Shown: one piece after another, positions 2,400 through 59,400 of the stretch
Numbering within the stretch: the stretch's first letter is position 1
Layout of the letters: every line of letters begins with the position of its first letter
Assembly: GCA_023053685.1 (NCBI GenBank)
Contig: JALIGW010000001.1
Location: forward strand, 55,053,359-55,117,358
DNA length: 64,000 bases
Source: Diadophis punctatus similis
Taxonomy: Eukaryota > Chordata > Lepidosauria > Squamata > Dipsadidae
Direction: 5' to 3'
Translations under genes and position numbers: made by a program
The notes under the pieces: generated by a model
Told to the model about the DNA's origin: nothing
The model's input: the letters and a program-made list of their open reading frames with translations, nothing else
The model's database searches: none

Positions 2400-2540
2400 C
2401 TTAGCACTTGTAACTCCGTCGCATTCCACGCTCTTGTGTGCAGGGCAGCCCATTCTGAAAGAAAACATCTCGTGTTTTCTTTCAAAATGGGCTGCCCTGC
2501 ACACAAGAGCGAGGAACGTGAGAGAGCTTCAAGTGCTAGG
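2400..2540. repeat. Hairpin module 1
   Basis: Two arms of about 65 bp, the left starting at tagcacttgtaactccgtcg and the right ending at cttcaagtgcta, fold over a short tip around catctcgtg. The inner stem is gcagcccattctgaaagaaa paired with ttctttcaaaatgggctgc. The same module recurs at 2653-2785 and, in diverged form, in the TA-flanked elements further along. Confidence 0.85.
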
Positions 2541-2652
2541 TAGGACGCCCGTCGTGCGGTGTGACACAGTTTGGGGTGACCAGTCGTGCGGGGCAGAGCG
2601 GAGCGGAGCCTGGGCGGGGGCTGGGCGGGCCACGAGACGGGCATCATACCTA

Positions 2653-53400: not shown

Positions 53401-56400
53401 TTTCTGCCAATCTTCGTAAGTTCAAATGACTGATATCTGATGGACTAATTTGTTTAACTGCTTGCTTTGTTTTGGGCTTGGACTCTGGCCAGTTGTTAAG
53501 ACGTTAATTAACAGCTGGCATACCGAAAAGACTTCTTTATGATTTCATGAACTTTAAACAGAGACAACTGCTAAGAAAGTATTAGTAGTAAACAACTTGT
53601 GTTTGAGAACAGTTTGTGTGTGGGTATTTCTTGTGGGTCTCGACGCTGGGGCAGAACAACTGTTGCAGCCTGCAGGTGCCTTCCTGCCCACCAGATCTCC
53701 TGCCCTGATTTCAGAAATTGCGCACTGAGGAACTAGAGAGCTTGGCACGCCTCCTCCCTGCACCCCTCTCTTTCTGGATGCACATCGCAAGAGGGTTTCC
53801 TAATCAAACCTGCTTTCCAGCTCTGTCTCATTTCTCCACGCAGCTCAAGACGCTCTTCTTTCGCTGGAGAAATGGAAAAGCTGTGTTGCAAAAGGAAGAA
53901 ACACGTAGGGAAACTAAGAATCATTCAAAGTCATTGCTTTCCCCAATGCAGATCAGGAGAGACCAACCAACTCCATGAGACAACTTTCATGACAAGTTGG
54001 AAAGGCTGATCTTACTTTTTGTTTTTTTAGCCCCACAGAGGAAGCCACCAGGCAATGGCCTTGTTATTCCCGGAGGTTGCCTTGTGGAGTCGGTGGAATT
54101 TCTCCTTACTTGTAGGTTGTATCTTTTTTTATTTTAACAAGCTGCCTTAGACAGCAAGTCTTTGTGACAGCCCCTCAAGTACTGGAAGGCAGTTACCAAT
54201 GTCCCCCCATCTTTCTCTTTGATAGACTGTACATATTTAGCTCCCTCAACCATTTGTCATACGATTTAACCTCAAAGCTCTTTATCATCTTTGTTGCTTT
54301 TCTATACACATTTCCAGGGTCTCAACATCTTTTTTGTATTTTGGTGACCAAAGCTGGATGCAGTACTCCAAGTGTGGTCTCCCTAGCATGGTGTAAAGTG
54401 ATGCTATCATTTCTCATTGTCTTGACACTATCCCTCTGCCTAGGACTGCATTGGTTTTTTGGCAGCTGCAGCACACTGCTGGCTTATACTTAAGCGGTGG
54501 TCCACTAGGAGACTTATATCCCTCTCACAATTACTACTCTTGAGCCAGTTACCGCCTATTTTGTACCTATGCATTTAGTTTTTACTGCCTAAGTGCAGGA
54601 CTTTACTTTTTTCACTATTGAACTGCACCTTGTTGGATAGGATAGGACTTGGTGCTCAAGTCTGCCAAGATCCTTCTGAATCTCATAGCTGCTGACCTCT
54701 CATCTCTTGATTGGCACATTGTGTTCACTGGCTGTAACACTGCTGAAGACCATTATATCACTTTTTTGCTCGAAGTCAAAAGAGTCATTAAACTATACAT
54801 ATCATTAGTAACCCCCAAAGCCAGAAAAAACAAATTACCCATAACAATAAGGAAGCTCCAATCCCCCCAAAAATCTTGTTTTTTGGTGAAAAAACAAAAC
54901 TGGCTACGTAGCTAACTTTAAAAGCCGCTACAAAATCTTATGTGGTCAAATAAAGGCAGAATGCACCAATTACCACTGCAATCAAGAAGAAAAGCTGTTA
55001 CACATGAAATCCACCTGCGCCTTCTATAATTTTGTAAACACCAAACTTAAAGACTCGAAAACCATCCCACCCCTAAAAGGGCCTAACGGGAAAGACTGTA
55101 ATGATGAAGCCATTAAGGCCAACCTCTTCAACACGTTCTTCAGTTCAGTCTTTCGCAACAGCAATGGCTCATGCCCCACATTTCCTACTCGTACCACAAC
55201 TAATTGCAACAATCTATTACATATTGATTTTACAGAAGATAACGTTAAAAAGGCACTACGCAACCTAAAAACATCTCTATCTATTGGCCCTGATGGATTA
55301 TGTGCCTATTTCTTGAAAAAGCTTTCCACTGCCATTGCCAAACCACTAAACACAATCTATGAACCAGCTCCTTACCCAACCTATGGTCATTAGCCACAGT
55401 CACTCCTATCTTCAAAAAGGGAGACTCCAGCCTACTTGAAAATTACAGACCAATCTTATTGTGTTGTGTCACCTGCAAAGTAATGGAATCAATTATAAAC
55501 TAATCCATTATCTTCCACTTAGAGACAAACAACCTACTTCCTAACAAACAGTTTGGTTTCAGAAAAAAATTGTCCTGTAATCTGCAACACCTACACTGCA
55601 GAAACATTTGGACTACACAACTCGATCAGGGTAAAGCAATAAAGTCAATTTACATAAACTTCTGCAAAGCCTTTGATTCAGTGGTACATGACAAACTACT
55701 GTCAAAACTACGCCCCCACAGCATTTCCAGACCCCTGCACAAGTGGATAGCTACGTTCCTCTCAAACAGACAACAAGTACCGTGTTTCCCTGAAAATAAG
55801 GACATATCCTGATATTAAGCCCAACAGGGATTTTCAGGGCATGCGCTGAAATAAGCCCCCCCCCCAAAATAAGCCCCCCAACTACTTTCCGGGGAAAGGG
55901 GGGGACATGCCCCATGAACCCGGGCCGAGCCCGCTCGGGGACAACAGAGGCAGCCGCTCCCTCGCCCGGTGGCTCCCATTTGTTCCAAGCCATCCCTTTT
56001 GCATCGGGCATTCTTTTGGCTGAGAGAGATAGAGAGAGAGCAAGCGAGAGGCAGGTGCGCGCAGGCACCGACACAAGATGCGCACACCCTGCGGGACTAG
56101 CTCGGCTCCTCTGGGCTCTGCCTCTGGTGGCGTTTTGAAACACGCTTCTGCCTCCGAGGAGGAGCAGGCAAGGCAGGGATTGAGGCTCTGGAGCCGGTGT
56201 GGCGGGAGGGGGGGAGAGCCCCTCCCCCCATCCCCCACCCAACAGCAACGTGGAGAGACGTGAAAGTACCCTTCCACCTACCTGCCCCAGGATCTGCCTC
56301 CCTGCACCTCTGGCTTGGTGGGTGACTCGGCGGTCCACTGATCGCCACACCCCTGGGCATGAGTTATCACCAAACATTTCAAAATGCCGCCGGAGGCAGA

Positions 56401-59400
56401 GCCCAGAGAAGCCCAGAGAAGACACGGCAGCCCAACTGGCCTCTTCTCCGCTTCCAGGGGCTTCTAGCCGGGGTTGACGTCTCACAGCCCACCCCACCCC
56501 ATCCCCCGCACCACCTGCCACCCCAGGCTGCTGTTGCCATTGGGTCAGGGTGGGACATGTTGGGCCGCGAGATGCGTGTCTTACCTTTCGGCGTTCCTTG
56601 CCGTTGTATCCAGGGAAAAACATTGTAATAAAAAAACCTCTGGAGTTCGAGAAGTTTGATTGAACTTGTGAGTTCTTTTTATTACAATGATTTTCCTTGG
56701 ACACAACGGCAAGGAACTCTGGAAAGGTAAGACGCATGTCTCGCGGCCCAACACGTCCCACCCCGGCCCAATGGCAACAGCAGCCTGGCTGCTTCCCTTC
56801 CCCGCCGTCTCTTTATCGAGAGGGGTGGCAGGTGGGACGGGGGAGAAGCGAGACACGTGAAGCAAGACATGGCTCCCCTTGCCGTCTCTTCTCCCCCCCC
56901 CTCGCCAGGCATGTCAGGGCTCCTGCTTCTTGTTTAGCCACAAGCCCCCTTTAGGGATGCAATTTGGGGGTGGCAGATGGGATGGGATGGGTCGCGAGAT
57001 GCATGTCTTACCTTTCAAGCACCATCGCATTCCTCAAACTCGTGAGAAGTTTTCTTTTACAATGGGCTTCCCTGGACACAACGCTGAGGAACGTGACGAA
57101 GCTACAAGTGTCAGGTAGGATGCACATCTCACAGCCCACCCCTCCACGCCCCACCTGCCACCCCCAAATTGTGTCCCACCGCGAGACGCGCGTCCTACTT
57201 GACACTTGCAGCTCCGTCACGTTCCTCGGCCAGGGACGTTGTGTCCAGGGAAGCCCATTGTAAAAGAAAACTTCTCGCGAGTTCAATCAAACTTCTCGAA
57301 CTCATGAGACATTTTCTTTTACAATGGGCTTCCCTGGACGCAATGCCGAGGAACGTGACGGAGCTACAAGTCCCAGGTAGAACGCGCATCTTACTGCCCA
57401 ACACGTCCCACCTGCCAGAAATGAGTCTCTGTGAGACTCGTCATGCCACCGCCGCTGCCTCATGGAGCAGGACTCTACAAGGCTTGTTGTGCCGTTGCAT
57501 GCACAAATGGCAGCACTACCGCGAAGTTCGATATACTGGCACAGCCGCTCGTGGCAGAATGCCAGCTGTGCCAGTATGATGAAGCTCGTGGCAGTCCTGC
57601 ATGCAATGGCACAACAAGCCTTACAGAGTCCTGCTCCACGAGGTGGCAGCGGGCCAGCTGCTCGGCCGGCGCCAAGAACAGGGAGGGGAGGTGGCGGCGA
57701 TGGGACATGCAGTCCCATGCTCACCGCCTACTGCACGCCCAAAATAATAAGCCCCCCTGATAATAAGACCAAGGCCATATTTCGGGAGTCAAAAGAAAAT
57801 AAGACCCTGTCTTATTTTCGGGGAAACACGGTAGTCAAAATAAGGAGTGCTCTATCAAACCCTGCACCAATTAACAGTGGTGTCCCCCAAGGCAGCGTTT
57901 TAGGACCCACTCTCTTTTTAATTTACATAAATGACCTTTGCGATCATATTATAAGCAGCTGCATCTTCTTCACTGATGATGTAAAACTATTTAACACCAC
58001 CGACAATACTGCTGCCCTATAAAGCGACCTTGACTATTTGTCAGAATGGTCGAACAATTGGCAACTTCAAATCTCAACCAACAAATGCTCTGTCTTACAC
58101 ATTGGCAAGAAGAATCAGAACACCAAATATAAGCTGAATGGACATGATCTCGTAGATGACCCTCACTCTGTCAAAGACCTAGGAGTACTCATCTCAAACG
58201 ATCTAAGCCCCAGAGTTCACTGTAACAACAGCATTGCCAAAAAAGCATTAAGAGTTGTTAACTTAATTTTGCGAAGCTTCTTCTCCGGTAACATTGTATT
58301 GCAAACTAGGGCATACAACACCTTTTCAGACCAATTCTTAAATACAGCTCGTCTGCCTGGAATCCACACTGTATATCAGACATTAATACAATTGAGCGAG
58401 TCCAGAGGTATTTCACGAGAAGAGTACTCTACTCCTCTGCTCATAATGGAATATCTTATGCCACCAGGCTTGAAATTTTGGGCTTGGATAACCTAGAACT
58501 ATGCTGCCTACGGTCTGACCTAAGCTTAGTTCATAAAATTATCTGCTACAACAGCCTACCTGTCAACAGCTACTTCAGGTTCAACCGCAATAATACATAG
58601 GCAAACAATAGATACAAACTCAAGGTAAACCGCTCCAAACTCGATTGCAGAAAATACTTCAGCAACAGAGTGATCAATGCCTGGAATGCACTACCTGACT
58701 TTGTTGTTACATCCTCAAACCCCCAAAACTTTAACCTTAAACTGTCTACCGTGGACCTCACCCCATTCCTAAGAGGTCTCTGAGGAGCGTGCATAAGCGC
58801 ACAAGCGTGCCTACCATCCCTGTCCTACTGTCCCCATTTATTCGTACCCATTTCCTGTGTTCATGTCCATGTTTATATTTATATCTGTTTTCTCGTACAT
58901 GTTTGACAAACTAACTAAATAACTAAATAAATAAATAAATTAATTTGTTGTGTTCACATCTGATTTAGTTCTCAGAATTGCAGACCTTTTAGTTACTTGA
59001 TGTTTCATATCAGTTTTTTAAATTATATAGTCGGCAGCTATCTTGAGTTTCTGAGCTATATTAGTTACATTATGAATCATACTACAGTTATATTACAGAT
59101 GATTGCATATACATTTTTCGGTTTTAAAGTTGTTTTTGGGGGGGCATTATTCAATAAAAATCTTAATGAACCTGAAGTATTTCTGAGGAGATTTGTACTT
59201 TTGTCTATATTTGTGATGTATGAAGCTCTGTACTTATCCTAAGAACAGATTGATTTTTTTAATTGCATTAAAACCTTTTCATAAAAATGTATAAGTTCAT
59301 TATCAATCATCCTGAACTGGTAAAACAATATTATAAATATGTTGATTTATAGGTTTATTTGCTTTAAATGCTATCTTGTGTATTTTTCTAACAGCATATT

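Follow-up and report, generated by a model that had tools for sequence, protein, structure and literature searches.

How do transposons with unrelated ends come to carry the same hairpins? The question is raised by a 64-kb window, the whole stretch of DNA analysed here (40.7% GC), at 55.05-55.12 Mb of contig C1 in the 1.78-Gb assembly of Diadophis punctatus similis. Within it, hairpins with related arms are found in a non-autonomous element of hAT type and in two TA-flanked elements, termed TA2 and TA3; the hAT-type element contains in addition the first coding exon of RSPH14. We consider it likely that the hairpins passed once, by capture, from the TA family to the hAT-type element, and that both families were amplified separately afterwards, the module being cargo exchanged between two transposon families.

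Hairpins in carriers with unrelated ends

The initial annotation had listed five hairpins that share arm blocks in the same order. Four of them (2400-2540, 2653-2785, 46693-46786 and 57187-57397) fold as claimed. The fifth, 56961-57170, is not a clean hairpin, but it keeps the right arm of the module (57037-57144), with the left arm mostly lost. In the TA2 hairpin hA (46693-46786) the common middle and tip blocks were found, while the outer block is present only as a weak version in the right arm. Low complexity does not account for the similarity of the arms: every score exceeds those of all shuffles, palindrome-keeping ones included. The hAT insert matched the TA3 interior with 114 bits (300 dinucleotide shuffles reached at most 31.0, and 300 mirrored ones, which preserve the palindromes, at most 31.9) and the TA2 interior with 50.9 bits (maxima of 36.5 and 31.9, respectively); between the interiors of TA2 and TA3 the score was 74.3 bits (maximum of 36.5 in 200 shuffles).

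The shared module is more general than first described. The common stretch exceeds a single hairpin and comprises hairpin, spacer and hairpin, with 2474-2720 aligned to 57271-57044 in a continuous match of 254 nt (69%, E 9e-29). Further related hairpins lie at 56523-56788 and 47033-47401, and a third at 44941-45037 has the tip alone in common. The observed/expected ratio of CpG is 0.54-1.15 in the hairpin modules versus 0.42 for the window. An Rfam scan of the 64 kb detected nothing at the hairpins and one marginal tRNA match elsewhere.

As already noted in the initial annotation, the ends of the carriers are unrelated. The element at 1148-2923 has CAGTGGTTCCCAAAC ends and the 8-bp duplication CTTTAGGG, whereas TA2 and TA3 lie between TA and end in sequence of the CCGTGTTTCCCCGAAAATAAG type. 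Terminal inverted repeats that are short and of the CAGTG type, which we take to be hAT-like, are present in the window and in the fetched copies (see below), and the 8-bp duplication was perfect at both ends in all five copies examined (the window copy and four fetched ones). Judged by these ends and the duplication, the element is of hAT type. TA2 and TA3 have ends and subterminal sequence in common, in opposite orientation (85% over 134 and 103 aligned columns). TA was found on both sides of either element and of five of the six fetched copies with both ends read; the exception (L019) carries TG on one side. For TA3 an empty site could be identified, since its joined flanks, part of a long interspersed element (LINE), match a related LINE at 61370-61500. 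Taken by itself, the TA target duplication makes both elements candidate members of the Tc1/mariner-like superfamily. Eight translated pieces of TA2 and TA3 had no match in Pfam, transposase included, no search being aimed at an autonomous partner; Pfam likewise gave nothing for three further translated pieces, nor did a PDB search with one TA3 frame.

From its left end, the hAT-type element consists of two stretches that recur in the window, a CTTT-rich tract, RSPH14 exon 1 on the minus strand, the hairpin pair with its spacer, and the right end. The first recurrent stretch (1228-1276) is found again in other repeats at 14061-14106, 24062-24206 and 40586-40644, and the second (1276-1352) in another repeat at 24606-24682. 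Thus, the sharing of modules is not confined to the hairpins. The minus-strand translation of the exon matches RSPH14 of PDB 9fqr (E 8.9e-20). Since a splice-donor-like GTGAGC follows the exon, its capture probably took place at the DNA level.

Copies in the genome and the probable direction of transfer

We fetched 20 copies from the genome (seven hAT-type, eight h3-type and five hA-type), choosing for each query among its 40 best-scored places; the candidate numbers given here are first-look counts and not confirmed copies. With the hAT hairpin as query, 1771 candidates were obtained, of which 40 were scored (window included) and matched at 96-100%. All seven hAT-type copies fetched from the other 39 places contained the RSPH14 exon, two or three hairpins (three in L015) and the hAT right end (77-98%) in constant order. 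Those of which the left side had been fetched (4/4) also had the hAT left end, with an identical 8-bp word on either flank. The TA3 hairpin h3 gave 1616 candidates (40 scored), and each of the eight fetched copies lies inside a TA element, although the end sequence of one (L021) was matched only in part. The hA region yielded 1244 candidates; the 40 that were scored (window included) covered 166-168 of the 168 nt at 99-100% identity. The five fetched hA-type copies all match TA2: one is full length (L026), two have large deletions within the palindrome (L027 and L030), a fourth (L028) extends on its right beyond the fetched stretch and contains hairpin hC twice, at 2467 and 2720, and the fifth (L029) is more diverged and does not properly match the first 270 bases.

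None of the 20 fetched copies was a solitary hairpin with its own target duplication, all being inside a hAT or TA-flanked element; since the sample consists of the best-scored places, decayed solitary copies could be missed. In a blind sample of 100 kb (10 stretches, E 1e-5), no match was found to the ends or interiors of TA2 and TA3 or to the ends or insert of the hAT element; what matched was a stretch inside the left part of the hAT element, and also the other element at 4202-5202.

We then compared the hairpin arms in a tree of 69 rows and 75 columns, comprising 68 of 72 merged places and the left arm of hA (four arms shorter than 60 nt were left out). In this unrooted tree the hAT arms form one group (ultrafast bootstrap, UFBoot, 90), and a split with UFBoot 96 sets hAT and hA apart from h3, h1 and hC. 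That is, hA is the nearest to the hAT hairpins among the TA hairpins compared. In part of an earlier tree the hAT left arms clustered together and the right arms together, and thus the two arms had diverged before the hairpin was duplicated. The long loop of hA aligns with the h3 loop of one fetched copy (L018) with a score of 35, compared to 10 for the best of 2000 shuffles. This loop is absent from all 17 hAT tips (15 by pattern, two by eye), and hA is therefore unlikely to derive from a hAT copy. TA elements contain several divergent hairpin types, hAT copies one. Together, the loop common to hA and h3 and the greater variety of TA hairpins favour a transfer from TA to hAT.

Origin of the shared module

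We propose that the hairpins are native internal parts of a large non-autonomous TA-flanked family, in which palindrome chains make up most of the interior. A hAT-type element would have taken up the hairpin-spacer-hairpin of an hA-like TA element as well as the first exon of RSPH14 with upstream DNA. Template switching during gap refilling is the most likely route, with RSPH14 DNA as one filler and a TA element as another. The capture of the hairpins was probably a single event, and the two pieces of cargo may have been acquired in one step or separately. The resulting Pack-hAT would have spread by ordinary hAT transposition, while the TA family was amplified separately. Several points weigh against this proposal. 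The tree is short and unrooted, and its root could fall on the hAT branch, so the direction of transfer rests on loop and hairpin diversity. Between hAT and h3 hairpins the identity reaches only some 70-80%, nor does hA itself qualify as a close donor. Our search for the parent gene matched RSPH14 exon 1 only, which leaves room for a hairpin already upstream of the native gene. Finally, the fetched copies come from the best-scored places.

The initial annotation had offered three possibilities, namely a module that moves by itself, is exchanged between elements or derives from a common source. Our results favour exchange, in the form of capture. If hAT and the TA family had each independently captured a hairpin pair that lay on the upstream side of RSPH14 or at some other site of the host genome, the direct contact of the hAT hairpins with the RSPH14 upstream region would be accounted for, as would the promoter- or first-exon-like DNA with CpG above the window average in both families. 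However, no RSPH14 match was detected in 2-kb stretches around any of the eight h3-type copies, and the several divergent hairpin types in TA elements point to these as the older home, which makes a common host source unlikely. The reverse direction, from a hairpin born in hAT to a TA element, is compatible with an unrooted tree, but it fits poorly with hAT tips that lack the loop of hA and h3 and with the higher diversity of TA hairpins; we regard it as very unlikely. A hairpin element that moves by itself and inserted into both families would not be without parallel in this window, where an apparently self-moving example with a TCTAGA-like duplication exists at 4664-4807. Given the lack of solitary copies in our sample, the constant position inside both families and the fact that no duplication around the module was seen by eye in 2398-2788, we consider such an origin highly improbable.

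The carriers can be compared with known systems. Foldback elements and hAT- or Tc1-type miniature inverted-repeat transposable elements (MITEs) have long inverted repeats, are non-autonomous and reach high copy numbers, as do the elements studied here. In our case, however, the terminal repeats are short, and the palindromes are internal, with several per element. The initial statement that no element of this type is described was too strong, since sequence capture by transposons with terminal inverted repeats (TIRs) is described for the Pack-TIRs of metazoans, in which TIR DNA transposons contain captured non-element sequence and multicopy cases were amplified by transposition, according to the relevant sections of Tan et al. 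(2021, PMC8277862). These sections, which also mention FB4, put forward gap filling or fork stalling with template switching as the model of formation, and this model fits the hAT element, in which RSPH14 exon 1 lies between hAT ends with target duplications. Different from the Pack-TIRs as presented there, a piece of a second transposon family is among the cargo here, the family reaches a high copy number, and the cargo of the TA family is doubled into palindromes; the terms 'hairpin' and 'palindrom' gave no hit in the main text of PMC8277862. Turmoil-1 of C. elegans, a Harbinger element with transposase, carries doubled cargo in 760-bp terminal repeats, that is, captured gene fragments on both sides of a DNA transposon as inverted repeats (PMC2572040). 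Here, by contrast, the cargo is internal and arranged in palindrome chains, and no transposase was matched in the eight translated pieces. A literature search with the terminal sequences found no paper, within the literature surveyed. The finding is best read as a capture of the Pack-TIR kind with new features and not as a self-moving module. Read in this way, it documents that DNA transposons whose ends are unrelated have exchanged cargo within a single genome.

Captured exon, palindromes and loop inversion

A genome search with RSPH14, using an approximate human sequence, gave 116 scored places (1116 candidates) for this host first exon, all within residues 1-71. Three of the 116 (C1, C79 and C112) adjoin hAT hairpin places by comparison of their coordinates, and one of the remaining places may be the native exon. 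By manual row count, a stop codon interrupts the exon in seven. The frame was open in all eight copies that were read. As open frames are favoured among the best-scored rows, no selection can be read from this.

The palindromes of TA2 follow in the order hB, giant palindrome, hA, I5 and hC. The giant palindrome contains a first-exon-like sequence, the peptide of which may resemble TMEM271, although look-ups of this peptide found no match in Pfam, the protein collection or PDB. From the centre outward, its arms differ at 2/467, 3/159 and 4/154 sites, in addition to two 10-nt length differences. As a side observation, these arms (45043-46694) are closer to each other near the centre (2/467 sites differ) than outside (7/313).

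Near-identical TA2 copies differ in the orientation of their loops. In L026 the loop of the giant palindrome (74 nt; window 45832-45905) stands inverted relative to the window and is exactly reverse-complementary to its counterpart in L028; the window copy differs by one base from the L026/L028 sequence and L029 by another single base. The 19-nt hC loop (window 47208-47226) is exactly inverted in L026 relative to the window, L027, L028 (twice) and L030, and none was found in L029. Uninverted loops were seen for hA and I5 in all six copies and for hB in five of the six, L029 having no hB loop that we could find. Among ten h3 hairpins caught by pattern in nine elements, the two orientations occurred five times each, with a turn of the loop alone and of the whole hairpin being indistinguishable. 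Recombination or copying between the arms is the simplest reading of the inversions. In h3 arms, we counted 12 identical double changes versus a mean of 7.5, a value reached by 27 of 758 re-pairings; this weak test gives a hint of an arm-homogenising effect. The near-identical TA2 copies with their flipped loops offer a direct way to study the origin and recombination of palindromic cargo in transposons.

Words of the type TCTCGCGAG occur in the tips of hB, hC and h3. For the CGCG element TCTCGCGAGA, induction of bidirectional transcription is reported (PMC6192621), and BANP is reported to prefer AAATCTCG (PMC10206803). That the multiplied first exons and CGCG-box tips serve as promoters is speculation. 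With considerable doubt, the TA family might be a palindrome-maker that doubles its cargo by snap-back, with arms recombining and loops flipping, and its hairpins might be points of cargo exchange between unrelated transposons, spreading TCTCGCGAGA-like tips and pieces of host promoters and first exons by the hundreds.

Table 1. Coordinates of the hAT-type element, TA2 and TA3 and of their parts within the window
Feature	Position	Strand	Remarks
hAT-type non-autonomous element	1148-2923	+	CAGTGGTTCCCAAAC ends; CTTTAGGG at 1140-1147 and after 2923; member of high-copy family
Captured RSPH14 first coding exon	1986-2391	-	Start codon 2223-2221; upstream region toward hairpins; splice-donor-like end
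hAT hairpin 1	2398-2542		Short tip, without long loop
Spacer between hAT hairpins	2543-2646		Within continuous 254-nt match to TA3
hAT hairpin 2	2647-2788		Direct duplicate of hairpin 1, 93% over 139 nt
TA2, TA-flanked element	44773-47625	+	24-nt perfect terminal inverted repeats; interior a palindrome chain; young high-copy subfamily
TA2 hairpin hB	44941-45037		Tip TTCTCGCGAGAA; arms not in common
TA2 giant palindrome	45043-46694		Holds captured sequence, rich in CpG and like a first exon (ATG at 46364); 74-nt loop
TA2 hairpin hA	46693-46786		Nearest to hAT hairpins among TA hairpins compared; long loop kept
TA2 palindrome I5	46838-46980		Unrelated arms
TA2 hairpin hC	47033-47431		Divergent module member; arm copied in part once more at 47371-47431; loop of 19 nt
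TA3, TA-flanked element	55780-57831	-	Family of TA2, opposite orientation; inserted in LINE copy
TA3 hairpin h1	56523-56788		Used in arm comparison
TA3 module h2	56961-57170		Right arm 57037-57144 kept, left mostly lost
TA3 hairpin h3	57184-57391		Long loop; present in other TA elements
TA3 hairpin I2	57449-57652		Beside one element end; unrelated arms; matched in 8/8 other TA copies

Two further hairpins of the window stand apart from the module. The self-moving-looking one is of a different kind and occurs at 4664-4807 and 39836-39901; with its TCTAGA-like duplication it lies in a TA-flanked element (4197-5204), the sister of which (47952-48955) lacks it. Another hAT-like element, at 21300-21962, contains a GC-rich nested hairpin (21425-21717) with unrelated arms.

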